Positions 20,301 through 36,901 of a DNA stretch of 50,285 nt are shown here, in pieces (position 1 is the stretch's first letter; the number at the start of each line of letters is the position of its first letter). The notes under the pieces were generated by a model that saw only the letters and a list, made by a program, of their open reading frames with translations, was not told where the DNA came from and made no database searches. The position numbers and the translations under genes are program-made. Source of the DNA: Gammaproteobacteria bacterium (GTDB lineage: Bacteria; Pseudomonadota; Gammaproteobacteria; GCA-2400775); the NCBI GenBank assembly GCA_013151045.1, contig JAADIY010000004.1, positions 1 through 50,285 of the forward strand, read 5' to 3'.

Positions 20301-21311
20301 GTGGATGATTTACTCTCACAAGACGAAATTGATGCCCTGCTAAATGGTGTAGACGGCGGTGATGTTGATACTGAGGCTGACGTTGTCGATGACGGTTCTG
20401 CTAAAGGCTATGATTTTAATAGCCAAGACAGAATTGTTCGTGGGCGCATGCCTACACTCGAGATGATCAATGAGCGTTTCGCGCGTAATTTCCGTTTAAG
20501 TCTATTTAATATCCTACGTCGCAGTGCAGAAATCGCCGTTAGTGGTGTGCAGATGCTTAAATTTTCTGAGTATATGCACACCTTGTTTGTTCCAACTAGT
20601 CTCAATATGACACGTGTCGCTCCTCTAAAGGGTACGGCATTAATCGTATTTGATCCAAAATTGGTTTTTGCAGTGGTGGATAACTTCTTTGGTGGTGATG
20701 GCCGATGGCACGCGAAGATTGAAGGGCGTGAATTCACCGCAACTGAATTACGTGTGCTGAGTATTCTTTTACAAGAAGCTTATAAAAATATTATGGAAGC
20801 TTGGGGGCCGGTTATGCCAATTAACCTCGAGTTCATTAATGCAGAAGTGAACCCACAGTTTGCAAATATTGTTAGTCCTTCTGAAATTGTTGTGGTTTCA
20901 ATATTTCATATTGAACTAGAAGGTGGTGGGGGTGATTTTCATATCACTATGCCTTATTCAATGTTGGAACCCATTAGAGAGCTACTTGATGCTGGTATAC
21001 AAAGTGATAGCGATGATAAAGATGAACGCTGGCAGCACTCATTACGTCACGAGTTATTAGATGCGCCAGTTGAAATTATTGCTAATTTGACAGAACAAGA
21101 TATTAGTTTGCGAGACGTAATGAATTTTAAAGAAGGTGATGTTATTCCGATAGATACGCCCCAGGAAGTTATCGCAACAATCGAAAATAACCCCGTTATC
21201 CGAGGAAGTTATGGTTGGTCTGATGGTAATAATGCTATTCAGGTTAGAGAAAAAATTAGTTCCTCTTCACCAAGAACAATACCCGTAATATCAGGAGAAC
21301 AAAATGGCTGA
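20301..21311 (+). CDS. fliM: Flagellar motor switch protein FliM
   Basis: This 336-residue C-ring protein starts at GTG. The extreme N-terminus, LLSQDEIDALLNGV, is the known CheY-P-binding peptide. Next comes the middle CheC-like domain with RIVRGRMPTLEMINERFARNF, and the FliG-binding region with GTALIVFDPKLVF and FFGGDGR. A C-terminal SpoA domain (about 255-325) includes LDAPVEIIANLTEQDISLRDVMNF and ends at GSYGWSDGN. It overlaps fliN by 8 bases. Confidence 0.97.
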   Translation: MDDLLSQDEIDALLNGVDGGDVDTEADVVDDGSAKGYDFNSQDRIVRGRMPTLEMINERFARNFRLSLFNILRRSAEIAVSGVQMLKFSEYMHTLFVPTSLNMTRVAPLKGTALIVFDPKLVFAVVDNFFGGDGRWHAKIEGREFTATELRVLSILLQEAYKNIMEAWGPVMPINLEFINAEVNPQFANIVSPSEIVVVSIFHIELEGGGGDFHITMPYSMLEPIRELLDAGIQSDSDDKDERWQHSLRHELLDAPVEIIANLTEQDISLRDVMNFKEGDVIPIDTPQEVIATIENNPVIRGSYGWSDGNNAIQVREKISSSSPRTIPVISGEQNG

Positions 21312-21828
21312 TCCAGTCGATGGCGAAGACATTAGCCAAGATGATGTCGATAGTCTAATGGACGGTGGTGTTGCTGCAATACCAGATGGTGTTGATGCAA
21401 CAGCAGGTGGTGTTGATAACACATCAGGCAGTGATTCTGATGCAGATGCAATGGATGCATGGGGTGCCGCCCTTGATGAACAAGCAGAGGCTGAGGGAGA
21501 AGATGTTGTTGCAGCCGAGACGGTTGCCTTTGATAACTTGAATCCTAGTAGCGGAAATCTTCAAGGCGAAGTTAATCTGGATATGGTTTTAGATATTCCA
21601 GTCACTATGGCGATGGAACTAGGCCGCACTCATATTAGTATTCGCAACTTACTTCAGCTAAATCAAGGTTCCGTTGTAGAACTCGATCGCATGGCAGGCG
21701 AGCCAATGGATGTTCGTGTCAATGGCACATTGATTGCTCGTGGTGAGGTAGTCGTGGTTAATGATAAATTTGGTATTCGTTTAACAGATGTAATTAGTGC
21801 CGCTGAACGAATTAAAAATCTTAAATAA
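21304..21828 (+). CDS. fliN: Flagellar motor switch protein FliN with an N-terminal CheY-docking-like motif
   Basis: The C-terminal 85 residues form a standard SpoA domain (NLDMVLDIPVTMAMELGRT, LLQLNQGSVVELDRMAGEP, VVVNDKFGIRLTDV). The N-terminal 85 residues are acidic, Gly/Ala/Asp-rich and disordered. Residues 10-22, ISQDDVDSLMDGG, closely resemble the FliM peptide SQDEIDALLNGV that binds CheY-P. Ordinary gammaproteobacterial FliN proteins have acidic extensions, but such a motif recalls FliY of other phyla. The docking role is an inference. The gene lies directly after fliM. Confidence 0.95.
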   Translation: MADPVDGEDISQDDVDSLMDGGVAAIPDGVDATAGGVDNTSGSDSDADAMDAWGAALDEQAEAEGEDVVAAETVAFDNLNPSSGNLQGEVNLDMVLDIPVTMAMELGRTHISIRNLLQLNQGSVVELDRMAGEPMDVRVNGTLIARGEVVVVNDKFGIRLTDVISAAERIKNLK

Positions 21829-30318: not shown

Positions 30319-30708
30319 GTGGATAAAAATATGAAAATCTTGATTGTGGATGATTTTTCCACAATGCGTCGAATAATCAAGAACCTATTACGTGATTTAG
30401 GATTTAATAATACTACTGAGGCCGATGATGGCCAGACAGGACTGCCTATTTTACAAGCAGGTGGTATCGATTTTCTTGTAACGGATTGGAATATGCCGGG
30501 TATGCAAGGAATTGATTTGTTAAAAGCAGTACGTGCTGATCCTAAATTGGCGAGTACGCCAGTGCTAATGGTCACCGCAGAGCAAAAGCGTGAACAAATT
30601 ATTGAAGCCGCCCAGGCAGGTGTAAATGGATATATTGTTAAGCCATTTACAGCGGCAACATTGAAGGAGAAGATCGATAAGATTTTTGAACGCATAGACG
30701 CCGCTTAA
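30319..30708 (+). CDS. cheY: Chemotaxis response regulator CheY
   Basis: This 129-residue single-domain receiver has the acid pair in [10 protein letters not shown], acceptor Asp56 in LVTDWNMPG, Thr in LMVTAEQ and Lys in YIVKPFT. CheY-P binds FliM to reverse rotation. The GTG at 30319 lies 7 bases after GGAGG, which favours it over the ATG four codons on. It is followed by cheZ after 24 bases. Confidence 0.97.
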
Positions 30709-30732: not shown

Positions 30733-31476
30733 ATGCAAAATCAGGCTATAGAAGAAGATATACGGTTAATAAAAGCACGTGAACTCGTCCTTTGCCTAGA
30801 AAAGGCAGACGAAGAGTCGGCTATAGAAATTATTGACGACATTACTAATGTTCGTAATACCGAGCTATTCAATTCAATAGGTCGCTTAACGCGAGACCTT
30901 CATAACGCTATCTCAGGTGTTGGTGACGGTGCAGATGTGTCGCAGTTAACTTCATTTGAAATTCCTGACGCTAAAGAGCGGCTCAATTATGTTGTTAAGA
31001 TGACTGAACAAGCCGCAAATAAAACACTTGGCGCAATTGAAGAAATTTTACCACGTTGTGATCAGTTGCATGATCGTTCAGCTCGACTCACATCGATTTG
31101 GAACCGTTATGCCTCTGGTGATATGCCAGAAGATGAGTTTCATTCAATGTCAGATGTCATCAAAACATTTCTCAATAAATCAGAAATTGATTCTGATGTA
31201 ATGCGCATAAAGTTGAAAGAAGTTTTGATTGCTCAGGAATATCAAGATATTACCAGTCAGGTTATTGGGCGCGTAATTAAGCTTGTCGAAGATGTAGAAA
31301 GCAGCCTAATGAAAGTATTGAAACTTACTGGAGCGACAGCCGATGGCGCTGATCAAGACTCAGGTAAGCGCAGTGGGGATGAGTTAGAAGGACCGCAGAT
31401 ACCAGGTCATAAATCCTCAACGGCGCTAAATGGCCAAGATGAAGTTGATGATTTGTTATCAAGCCTCGGTTTTTAA
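30733..31476 (+). CDS. cheZ: CheY-P phosphatase CheZ
   Basis: This helical protein of about 247 residues has the catalytic region with the active-site glutamine in LIAQEYQDITSQVIGRV. The C-terminus, QDEVDDLLSSLGF, is the known CheY-docking peptide. The first helices include ELFNSIGRLTRDLHNAI. CheZ dephosphorylates CheY-P. The ATG at 30733 is preceded by AGGGGAG. An ATG at 30718 would place this ribosome binding site inside the gene. Confidence 0.95.
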   Translation: MQNQAIEEDIRLIKARELVLCLEKADEESAIEIIDDITNVRNTELFNSIGRLTRDLHNAISGVGDGADVSQLTSFEIPDAKERLNYVVKMTEQAANKTLGAIEEILPRCDQLHDRSARLTSIWNRYASGDMPEDEFHSMSDVIKTFLNKSEIDSDVMRIKLKEVLIAQEYQDITSQVIGRVIKLVEDVESSLMKVLKLTGATADGADQDSGKRSGDELEGPQIPGHKSSTALNGQDEVDDLLSSLGF

Positions 31477-31488
31477 GGACTAATAGAA

Positions 31489-33447
31489 ATGTCTTACGAT
31501 CTAAATGATGAAATCTTACAAGATTTTTTGGTCGAAGCAGATGAATTGCTTGAGTTACTTGCCGAGCAACTGGTCGACCTAGAAAAAAACCCCGAAGATG
31601 CTGATTTGCTCGCAGCGGTCTTTCGTGCATTCCATACCGTCAAAGGTGGAGCAGGTTTCTTAGCCATTACGCCATTGGTTGAGATCTGCCATCGTGGTGA
31701 GGATGTATTTAACGTATTGCGACAGGGCGACCGCGTTGCTGATACGGGTTTAATGGATGTTATTTTACAGGTTATGGATAGCATCAACGAAATGTTTGAC
31801 GTCGTTCGTACAGGTGAAGAACCCGATCCCCCTGATCCAGCGTTAATGCAAGCTTTAGAAAACTTGGCAAAGGTACCTGGTAAGGAAGCTGCAACCGTTG
31901 CAGAGTCAAGTCCTGAGTCTGTTAGTGCGGCGGCACCAGAAAGCGATAATATTACCGATGATGAGTTTGAAGCGCTGCTTGATAACTTACATGGTGAAGG
32001 GAAATCAACAACACCAGGTGATGATGTTGCGGCATCTGTAAGTGCTAGTGACGTAATTAGTGAAGATGAATTTGATAGCATGTTGGATGACCTTTATGGC
32101 TCCGGCCCTATTGGTGGTGCATCAGCCGAAAAATCAGAGCCTGCTTCAGTAGAGGCAAAGTCCGAAGCTGTCGCAGAAGATAAACCCGCAGAAAAAATGC
32201 CAGTCATTGCTGAAGAGGCGACTCCTCCAGCTAAGCCTGCCGCAAAAGCGAAACCAAAGCCGCCTGCACCTAAAACTGAGAGTGTAGTGCGGGTTGATAC
32301 GGAGCGTTTAGACGAAATCATGAACATGGTTGGTGAGCTGGTGCTTGTTAGAAACCGCTTACAAACTTTACAGATTGAAGTTGAAAATGAGCGTATGGCA
32401 AAAGCCGTCAGCGATTTAGATTTAGTGACTTCTGACTTGCAGACTTCAGTAATGAAGACGCGTATGCAACCAATTAAGAAAGTGTTTGGTCGATTCCCGC
32501 GCGTGGTTCGTGACCTAGCTCGCAGTTTGAATAAAGAGATTGAATTAGAGTTAGTCGGTGAAGACACCGATATGGATAAAAATATGGTTGAGGCTTTGGC
32601 TGACCCATTAGTTCATTTGGTACGTAACTCGGTTGATCATGGTGTTGAAACGCCAGCGATACGCGAAGTAGCAGGTAAAGAGCGCCAAGGTAAAGTGATT
32701 CTGTCAGCCGCACAGCAAGGTGATCATATCCTGCTGAGCATTGAAGATGATGGCGCAGGTATGGATGCTGAAGTGTTACGCGCTAAAGTCATTGAAAAAG
32801 AGTTGATGGATGCAGAAACCGCTGCGCGATTGGACGATCGTGCATGCTATAACTTGATCTTTATGGCTGGTTTTTCAACGAAAGATCAGATTTCTGATGT
32901 CTCAGGTCGAGGCGTTGGTATGGATGTGGTGAAAACACGAATTACCCAATTGGGTGGCTCTATCACCATAGACTCAGAGTTAGGTAAAGGTACAACGATA
33001 CGGCTTAAATTGCCGTTAACCTTGGCAATTTTGCCGACACTGATGATTGTATTGCAGGATCAAACGTTTGCATTACCGTTAACCTCTGTGGTTGAAATTT
33101 TCCATGTCAACATTAATGAAATCAGTGTTGTCGATGGTAATCCGGTGATTGTTATTCGAGAGCAGGCATTACCACTGTTACATGTTGGTGAATGGTTGGT
33201 TAACGGTTATGACAAAGAACATTTAAATTCTCAGATGGCACATGTGGTCGTTGTTAACGTGGGTTCACAGCAACTTGGTTTTGTCGTAGATCAATTGGTT
33301 GGCCAAGAAGAGGTTGTGATTAAGCCGCTAGGTGCCTTTTTACATGGAACCAAAGGTTTAGCTGGCGCAACGATTACTGGTAACGGCCAAATTGCACTGA
33401 TTCTCGATGTGCCGGGCTTAGTTATGCAGTATCGAAACATCGCCTAG
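31489..33447 (+). CDS. cheA: Chemotaxis histidine kinase CheA
   Basis: This 652-residue kinase has HPt/P1 with His49 in FHTVKGGAGF. A long acidic then Pro/Ala/Lys-rich linker (about 125-262) stands where a P2 domain would be. P3 (about 265-325) follows, then the ATPase domain with HLVRNSVDHGVETP, DDGAGMD and GRGVGMDVV, and a C-terminal CheW-like P5. The linker holds two copies of a short motif, ITDDEFEALLDNLHG (155-169) and ISEDEFDSMLDDLYG (190-204). They resemble CheY-docking peptides of FliM and CheZ. They may serve CheY or, as in Vibrio LID regions, ParP (inference). Confidence 0.96.
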   Translation: MSYDLNDEILQDFLVEADELLELLAEQLVDLEKNPEDADLLAAVFRAFHTVKGGAGFLAITPLVEICHRGEDVFNVLRQGDRVADTGLMDVILQVMDSINEMFDVVRTGEEPDPPDPALMQALENLAKVPGKEAATVAESSPESVSAAAPESDNITDDEFEALLDNLHGEGKSTTPGDDVAASVSASDVISEDEFDSMLDDLYGSGPIGGASAEKSEPASVEAKSEAVAEDKPAEKMPVIAEEATPPAKPAAKAKPKPPAPKTESVVRVDTERLDEIMNMVGELVLVRNRLQTLQIEVENERMAKAVSDLDLVTSDLQTSVMKTRMQPIKKVFGRFPRVVRDLARSLNKEIELELVGEDTDMDKNMVEALADPLVHLVRNSVDHGVETPAIREVAGKERQGKVILSAAQQGDHILLSIEDDGAGMDAEVLRAKVIEKELMDAETAARLDDRACYNLIFMAGFSTKDQISDVSGRGVGMDVVKTRITQLGGSITIDSELGKGTTIRLKLPLTLAILPTLMIVLQDQTFALPLTSVVEIFHVNINEISVVDGNPVIVIREQALPLLHVGEWLVNGYDKEHLNSQMAHVVVVNVGSQQLGFVVDQLVGQEEVVIKPLGAFLHGTKGLAGATITGNGQIALILDVPGLVMQYRNIA

Positions 33448-33459
33448 AGGATTTTATAG

Positions 33460-34515
33460 ATGAGCGTTCGGGTGCTGGTCGTCGATGACTCCAGATTTTA
33501 TCGTCGCCGTGTATCCGAAATTCTAAGTTCCGACCCAAGTCTAGAAGTGGTCGGTACTGCAAAGGACGGAGCCGAAGCGGTAGAGTTAACCGACTCCTTA
33601 CGCCCTGACGTTATTACCATGGACGTTGATATGCCGGTGATGGATGGTATCACTGCAACACGACGTATCATGGCTTCTTCGCCAACACCCATACTAATGT
33701 TTTCCTCACAGACAACGACCGGCGCTAGAGCAACACTCGATGCGTTAGATGCTGGTGCCGTGGATTATATTCCTAAGCGCCTTGACGATATAGCAGGGCA
33801 TCAAGACAGCGCGATTGCGACTTTATGTCGGCGAATACATCAGCTTAAATCAATAAAGCAGTGTTTTGAAACGCAAAAAGTTACCTATCAATCCCCCGCT
33901 AAGAGAGTTGTTAAGCAAGAGCTAAAGAAAGACATTAACCTTCGAAGTTATCGAATTTTAGTTATTGGTACGTCGACGGGTGGGCCGGTTGCGTTACAGT
34001 CAATTTTGACGCAATTACCTAAAAATTTCCCTCTGCCTATTTTACTCGTGCAGCATATGCCAGGAAACTTTACCCCAGCATTTGCGACGCGATTAGATCA
34101 GCTATGCCAGATAAAAGTAAAGGAAGCAGAAAAAGGTGAAACTTTGCAATCAGGTGTTGCCTATGTTGCGCCGGGTGGCTATCAAACCACCGTAACAGGC
34201 TCGATAAGCGCGATGAGATTATTAATAGAGCCAGCGCAGATAGGCCAAATATATAAGCCTTGTATTGATATGACTTACGACTCTTTATCTAAATTAAATG
34301 CTACCAATAGAGTGTTAGCAGTCATATTAACAGGTATGGGTTCTGACGGAACTCAAGGGGCTAAATCATTAAAATCGGGTGGTGCGACAATTTGGGCGCA
34401 AGATGCCGCCAGTAGTCTTGTCGCAAGTATGCCAAGCTCTGTGACCGAAGCAGGTGTGGTTGATAGAGTACTTTCATTAGATGAAATGTGTTCGGTGTTG
34501 GCGGGCTCGGCATAG
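33460..34515 (+). CDS. cheB: Chemoreceptor methylesterase CheB
   Basis: This 351-residue protein has an N-terminal receiver (Asp55 in ITMDVDMPVMDG) and a C-terminal methylesterase. Catalytic motifs are visible: GTSTGGPVALQ with the nucleophile Ser, LVQHMPGNFTPAFATRLD with His, and LTGMGSDGTQGAKSL with Asp. It demethylates or deamidates receptors during adaptation. No cheR methyltransferase is in this window, so it must be encoded elsewhere. Confidence 0.97.
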   Translation: MSVRVLVVDDSRFYRRRVSEILSSDPSLEVVGTAKDGAEAVELTDSLRPDVITMDVDMPVMDGITATRRIMASSPTPILMFSSQTTTGARATLDALDAGAVDYIPKRLDDIAGHQDSAIATLCRRIHQLKSIKQCFETQKVTYQSPAKRVVKQELKKDINLRSYRILVIGTSTGGPVALQSILTQLPKNFPLPILLVQHMPGNFTPAFATRLDQLCQIKVKEAEKGETLQSGVAYVAPGGYQTTVTGSISAMRLLIEPAQIGQIYKPCIDMTYDSLSKLNATNRVLAVILTGMGSDGTQGAKSLKSGGATIWAQDAASSLVASMPSSVTEAGVVDRVLSLDEMCSVLAGSA

Positions 34516-36081: not shown

Positions 36082-36112
36082 ACAGTAGTACGATGGTTTG
36101 GAGGATATTGAG

Positions 36113-36901
36113 ATGAAAGTATGGGCCGTATCAAATCAAAAAGGGGGTGTAGGTAAAACTACAACTGTTGCGACATTAGCGGGTATTTTAGCATCACGCG
36201 GCAAGCGTGTATTGATGCTTGATTTGGATCCGCACGGCTCACTTACTAGCTATTTTGGTGGAGATCCTGATTCATCGAGCAAAAGTGTCTATAACTTATT
36301 TCAGCAAGGGCCCCAATGTGCCGATACGGTAGTGCAGGAAACAGCAATAGAAGGACTTAGCTTGATTCAGGCTACTACTGCAATGGCAACGTTGGATCGT
36401 CAAATCGGCGCCAGTGGTGGTAAGGGCTTAGTAATTAGCCAGGGTTTAGCGCAGTTGTATGAGGAATATGATTATGCGTTGCTCGATTGCCCGCCAATGT
36501 TAGGCGTGTTAATGGTCAACGCGCTCGCAGCATGTGAGCACTTATTTATTCCGGTGCAGACGGAGTTTCTGGCGTTGAAAGGATTAGAGCGTATGTTGAA
36601 TACACTGAAAATGGTGATCAAAGCCAAACAAATGAAGTTGGCCTACACGATATTGCCAACAATGTTTGATAGACGTACGCGCGCGTCGATTAAAAGCCTA
36701 AGGTCATTGCGAGAAACCTATCCAGATACTATCTCACCGAATGTTATTCCTGTTGATACTCAGTTTCGAGATGCAAGTTTAGTTGGTAAGCCACTATCAA
36801 TGATAAACCCACGGGCGAGAGGGGTTGTCGCTTATAACAGTATTTTAGAAGAAATACTGGGTGAAAGTGCTGTACTCAAACCAAGAGCGATTGCCTCATG
36901 A
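36113..36901 (+). CDS. parC: ParA-like ATPase ParC for polar chemotaxis arrays
   Basis: This ParA/Soj-type ATPase of about 262 residues has Walker A QKGGVGKTTT (about 9-18), LMLDLDPHGSLTSYFG and LLDCPPMLGVLMVNALAACE. In the motCD-parC-parP-cheW neighbourhood, ParC is known from Vibrio to place chemotaxis arrays at the pole. The ATG at 36113 lies 8 bases after GGAGG. It overlaps parP by 4 bases. Confidence 0.93.
   Translation: MKVWAVSNQKGGVGKTTTVATLAGILASRGKRVLMLDLDPHGSLTSYFGGDPDSSSKSVYNLFQQGPQCADTVVQETAIEGLSLIQATTAMATLDRQIGASGGKGLVISQGLAQLYEEYDYALLDCPPMLGVLMVNALAACEHLFIPVQTEFLALKGLERMLNTLKMVIKAKQMKLAYTILPTMFDRRTRASIKSLRSLRETYPDTISPNVIPVDTQFRDASLVGKPLSMINPRARGVVAYNSILEEILGESAVLKPRAIAS

Follow-up and report, generated by a model that had tools for sequence, protein, structure and literature searches.

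Two short repeated motifs in the linker of a CheA without P2 resemble CheY-binding peptides and may dock CheY

The 50,285-nucleotide stretch of gammaproteobacterial DNA analysed here (hereafter called the window) contains an operon with the gene order flhA-flhF-flhG-fliA-cheY-cheZ-cheA-cheB-motC-motD-parC-parP-cheW, the names being assigned from Pfam matches and homology. The segment fliA-cheY-cheZ-cheA-cheB-motCD-parC-parP-cheW is the arrangement of an F6-type operon, and the Pfam matches of the CheA product (Hpt, H-kinase_dim, HATPase_c and CheW) are those of an F6-type kinase, a class of flagellar CheA. The protein is composed of P1 (Hpt, residues 8-99), P3 (265-324), P4 (372-511) and P5 (518-645), with a linker of about 135 residues between P1 and P3. 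Two linker motifs had been placed 35 residues apart by the original prediction from this DNA, and their positions were confirmed to the base (Table 1).

Table 1. Features of the window discussed in the text.
Feature	Position	Strand	Basis or remark
cheA	31489-33447	+	652-residue open reading frame; P1, linker, P3, P4 and P5, without P2
Disordered P1-P3 linker (CheA 131-262), where P2 would lie; bears the motifs	31879-32274	+	AlphaFold2, profiles
Candidate docking motif, copy 1, ITDDEFEALLDNLHG (CheA I155-G169)	31951-31995	+	Conservation in orthologues; AlphaFold2 helix 157-167
Candidate docking motif, copy 2, ISEDEFDSMLDDLYG (CheA I190-G204)	32056-32100	+	Conservation in orthologues; AlphaFold2 helix 192-202
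cheY, proposed partner	30319-30708	+	64% identity to E. coli CheY
CheZ C-terminal peptide NGQDEVDDLLSSLGF, known type of CheY-binding peptide	31429-31473	+	CheZ Pfam match
FliM N-terminal peptide LSQDEIDALLNGV, known type of CheY-binding peptide	20313-20351	+	
cheB, possible second receiver partner	33460-34515	+	Homology
parP, CheW-like AIF domain with conserved RPWLAG segment	36898-37878	+	Candidate linker partner, instead of CheY or besides it
parC, ParA-like ATPase	36098-36901	+	Pfam

The suggestion that this CheA lacks a folded P2 was borne out by three approaches. Pfam found no P2 or CheY-binding domain (PF07194, PF09078) in the window CheA, profile comparison recovered none, and AlphaFold2 predicted no folded domain in the P1-P3 linker. 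Across the CheA proteins compared, Pfam matches to these domains were present in none of 69 motif-bearing sequences versus seven of 48 motif-free sequences (Fisher p = 0.0015, uncorrected for relatedness), and no match emerged when motif-bearing CheA were compared as profiles with P2 alignments. The motif is missing from the E. coli-type CheA of Leclercia, from a P2-like CheA paralogue in the same genome as the window (L002) and from four other P2-like proteins. P2 is also missing from many CheA that have no motif, which makes the motif one solution among others. In the paralogues L002, L089, L090, L091 and L092 the segment separating P1 from P3 holds a conserved domain, GWxIxFxPHxxMLxTGNDPxRMxRxL, that has no Pfam match and is probably a divergent P2. 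Profile-profile comparison of this domain with clostridial P2 gave a probability of 13.7 (E 0.002) and a second comparison gave no match; because this link is weak, the domains are named P2-like only.

The motifs were originally described as a feature of one CheA; they proved instead to be class-wide, in one to eight copies. One gammaproteobacterial genome per family was surveyed, with a CheA match at E<=1e-100, mostly to orthologues, in 53 of 143, and a named genome collection contributed a further 80 loci. Many gammaproteobacterial CheA linkers share the consensus DE-I-[TS]-[DE]-[DE]-E-F-E-x-L-L-D-x-L-H-G-x-G, among them those of Pseudomonas, Stutzerimonas, Vibrio, Photobacterium, Shewanella, Alteromonas, Glaciecola, Colwellia, Moritella, Marinobacter, Marinobacterium, Allochromatium, Thioalkalivibrio, Cycloclasticus, Succinivibrio, Dyella, Stenotrophomonas and Acidithiobacillus. 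At least one copy scoring above 12 bits was found in 81 of the 82 F6-type gammaproteobacterial CheA compared, the exception (L055) being degenerate; six proteins had one copy, 22 had two, 42 had three, 10 had four and one had eight, as counted with a profile whose training set was drawn from the counted proteins themselves, the window excluded. Copies were separated by a median of 41 residues, and none of the 82 proteins had a copy past the start of P3. Near-identical tandem copies in some arrays (for example L074) indicate that the array expands and contracts. The eight copies of L048, in a frame of 1073 residues, are followed by a long PAKPAAA repeat.

Within the motifs, E159, F160, L163, L164, D165, L167 and G169 of copy 1 and E194, F195, L199 and D200 of copy 2 were conserved in at least 90% of 80 orthologues. 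The mean majority fraction was 0.79 and 0.73 for the two motifs and 0.77 for P4, versus 0.33 for the spacer between the motifs and 0.32 for the tail. Conservation of the motifs, more than chance would give, thus equals that of the catalytic domain, and the remaining linker drifts. When ten whole genomes were searched with a 22-column motif profile, CheA proteins were the sole matches below E = 0.003, and the next match stood at 0.07.

In the same organisms FliM begins with [LI]LSQ[DE]E[IV]DALL[HNK]G and CheZ ends with GQD[DE]VDDLLSSLGF. The pattern of the FliM-N/CheZ-C class of CheY-binding peptides, hydrophobic-S/T-x-D/E-E-hydrophobic-D/E-x-L-L, is present in the CheA motifs, and FliM-N (L-S-Q-D-E-I-D-A-L-L) aligns in register with the CheA motif (I-T-D-D-E-F-E-A-L-L), which then continues as CheZ-C does (LLDNLHG in CheA, LLSSLGF in CheZ). 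For nearly all motif-bearing CheA, the segment of the whole protein that best matched a profile of 51 FliM N-termini was the motif, with scores mostly between 9 and 17.6 and clear exceptions in L055, L059 and L142; motif-free CheA mostly scored lower, with a few overlapping values (Campylobacterota at 8.6-11.1, and L090 at 10.9 in a P3 segment). Over the 20,419 residues of the window's open reading frames, a FliM-only profile with a soft prior ranked FliM and the FliN N-terminus highest, then CheZ-C, CheA motif 2 and motif 1, all of them within the top six; one FlhA segment, unrelated, scored in this range too. Motif 2 scored 14.0 versus 14.3 or 13.2, by prior, for CheZ-C. A strict FliM and CheZ profile, which was too narrow, placed the CheA motifs much lower, so the ranking depends on the prior. 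The resemblance to the FliM start and the CheZ end that had been proposed is real, though short.

Judged from sequence, the likeness points to a short linear motif rather than a homologous domain; the CheA motif profile returned no FliM or CheZ match at E<=10 in the ten whole genomes. Shared with FliM-N are an S/T-capped helix, acidic residues, hydrophobic and LL anchors in register and a flexible setting. Unlike FliM-N, the CheA motif lies inside a kinase, repeated along its linker, and has invariants of its own that lack a FliM counterpart, namely F at the I/V position and an additional D-x-L-H-G after LL. CheZ-C shares the DE[VF][DE]xLLxxLxx spacing and a similar FliM-profile score, but it is terminal and single, whereas the CheA motif occurs internally in one to eight copies. 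The FliN N-terminus of the window (21331-21369) starts with MADPVDGEDISQDDVDSLMDGG, is FliM-like and scored next after FliM with the FliM profile; it resembles the CheY-binding peptide at the start of FliY-type proteins.

AlphaFold2 prediction of CheA alone, from a 33-row alignment, gave pLDDT values mostly of 29-42 across residues 132-266, and the only two linker helices predicted were those of the two motifs. Because cheY, cheZ and cheA lie in one reading frame, CheY-CheZ-CheA(1-262) could also be folded as a single chain, from 22 related rows, with the two TAA stops read as Gly; this was a linking device, and no readthrough is claimed. The mean pLDDT of motif 2 (CheA 191-200) was 63 in CheA alone and 81 in the chain, the alignments differing, while motif 1 moved from 54/58 to 60/62 and the CheZ tail stood at 54/42; the pTM of the chain was low, at 0.29. 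The gain in motif 2 would be expected if this motif met a surface on CheY or CheZ, and weakly supports such a contact. Of the structural checks that had been proposed, the one for the linker with CheY gave this gain for one motif only, in a chain that also contained CheZ. Searches of the PDB with the CheA linker and with the motif profile gave nothing useful.

The best explanation, to which we assign a probability of about 0.6, is that the two peptides are repeated short CheY-docking motifs that mimic FliM-N and CheZ-C, take over the role of the absent P2 and may be shared with ParP. The motifs would be strung along the disordered linker, between P1, the phosphotransfer domain, and the kinase core. 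On contact with CheY each would fold into an amphipathic helix with a Thr or Ser cap, laying F160 or F195 and the pairs L163-L164 or M198-L199 on the alpha4-beta5-alpha5 face, which is conserved in CheY and largely retained in that of the window. CheY would thereby be held near P1 for fast phosphotransfer, and several copies would raise the local CheY capacity. We infer CheY binding, the face used, the faster phosphotransfer and any preference between CheY and CheY-P alike. The P2 or CheY-binding domain occupies the same place between P1 and P3 and has the same proposed job, but P2 is a folded domain of about 100 residues, whereas the segment seen here is a disordered linker with short helices and without a profile match to P2. 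In known systems the CheY surfaces bound by FliM, CheZ and CheA overlap (literature cited in PMC3774744). FliM was present in 46 of the 47 motif-bearing genomes searched (the genome of the window itself, 29 of 30 further genomes and all 16 of a third, gammaproteobacterial set).

The main rival, which we regard as unlikely, holds that the motifs form the core of the LID. This segment of CheA binds the AIF domain of ParP and, through ParC, tethers arrays to the cell pole. The LID has been reported in Vibrio between P2 and P3, only in CheA accompanied by ParC and ParP; by reported position it falls in the same linker and CheA class as the motifs, and parC and parP are both present in the window operon. 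In a Vibrio CheA (L117) the three motif copies are the only strongly conserved elements of the linker, and the C-terminal segment of the ParP AIF carries an invariant Trp. ParP was searched for in 17 genomes with a 24-sequence profile, which matched three controls at E values of 1e-72 to 1e-84, two genomes at 1e-14 to 1e-15 and three weakly. In the other nine of the 17 (two Dyella, Stenotrophomonas, Hydrocarboniphaga, Acidithiobacillus and four others) ParP was undetectable genome-wide, yet eight of these nine retain one to three clear motif copies, unlike the LID, which is reported only with ParC and ParP. The LID reading also leaves unexplained the likeness to CheY-binding peptides and the absence of the motif from P2-bearing CheA. 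ParP as the sole cause of the motif is rejected on the eight genomes without detectable ParP, and CheZ recruitment as the sole cause by two motif-bearing, near-complete genomes in which CheZ was undetectable, L049 (G101) and L063 (G022). Since the motif is kept without detectable ParP in the former and without detectable CheZ in the latter, neither partner alone explains it. The original prediction had offered ParP binding as the alternative, and conservation due wholly to another partner as grounds for abandoning CheY docking; the first is weakened as a sole role and may hold as a shared one, and for the second neither ParP nor CheZ suffices alone. Mean copy number was higher in ParP-bearing genomes (3.1 versus 1.8 in ParP-less genomes), which fits the LID and leaves room for use by both CheY and ParP. 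Such dual use, with the two partners bound by different copies or by the same copies at different times, comes next among the rivals and seems improbable: both partners map to the same CheA linker and copy number varies, but the copies within one protein are very similar and their number is confounded with phylogeny.

Apart from the shortness of the FliM match, its low rank with the strict profile and the invariants peculiar to the motif, docking of CheY by FliM-like peptides meets a further difficulty, in that FliM-N and CheZ-C prefer phosphorylated CheY, which by analogy would be odd for a dock that serves the substrate. The same general preference of FliM-like peptides would suit a sink for CheY-P rather than a substrate dock, a reading that we group with other targets (CheB, CheZ, CheV or FlhF) and consider very unlikely as a group. 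CheB, the other receiver, is likewise docked by P2 in other CheA, and the AlphaFold2 chain held CheZ beside CheY; however, the motif persists in the two genomes without CheZ, and FliM is nearly always present. We give almost no credence to the motif being an acidic helix, SHOCT-like or generic, with no function tied to a particular partner. Pfam SHOCT (PF09851) matches occurred in 38 of the 69 motif-bearing CheA, and the motif shares the ITxEEFE pattern of that family. The match in the window CheA is weak, covering profile positions 12-27 only; at 14.4 bits versus a curated cut-off of 27, and with the first half of the 28-position model missing, it does not place the protein in the family. SHOCT moreover has KK where the CheA motif has its LL pair, and against a generic helix stands the motif conservation, equal to that of the catalytic domain in a linker that otherwise drifts.

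Over half of CheA proteins are without P2, and only an unstructured region has been described in its place; how these kinases hold CheY is not explained in that work (Berry et al., PMC10542144). In the searchable open literature we found no description of a FliM-like or CheZ-like peptide or of an FEALLD or EFEALLD motif in CheA. Its conservation across the gammaproteobacteria, in one to eight copies, suggests that the proposed docking device is probably widespread as well as undescribed. A small, conserved and mutable peptide in the CheA of Pseudomonas, Vibrio and Shewanella makes the question of how CheY is held directly testable. If these peptides do dock CheY, kinase, motor and phosphatase would compete by way of the same type of peptide. 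This would also offer a clear example of a bacterial kinase in which a short linear motif, present in several copies, stands in for a folded docking domain.

Conserved linker peptides were also seen in CheA of other lineages. Betaproteobacterial linkers (L131, L132, L134, L136, L137, L144) contain a single conserved PDWxxLHxAVTG that resembles the local FliM DALLKGVTG and was ranked 1-3 by a betaproteobacterial FliM profile in five of eight proteins. It is conceivable, and we advance it only tentatively, that P2-less CheA across the Proteobacteria dock CheY by lineage-specific, often repeated peptides that mimic FliM (EFEALLDxLHG in gamma, PDWxxLHxAVTG in beta, LSAEEVEAEIERLL in Campylobacterota and GEVSxAELExAFQ in alpha). 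In that event kinase, motor and CheZ would be rivals for a single face of CheY, all using peptides of one kind, and CheY capacity would be tuned by the number of copies. The Campylobacterota linkers (L126, L127, L128, L146), whose FliM-profile scores are given above, carry a motif of the LSAEEVEAEIERLL type, of which the linker of Sulfuricurvum has two copies. The alphaproteobacterial linkers (L163, L165, L168) contain GEVSxAELExAFQ, which is repeated in L163 and L168.
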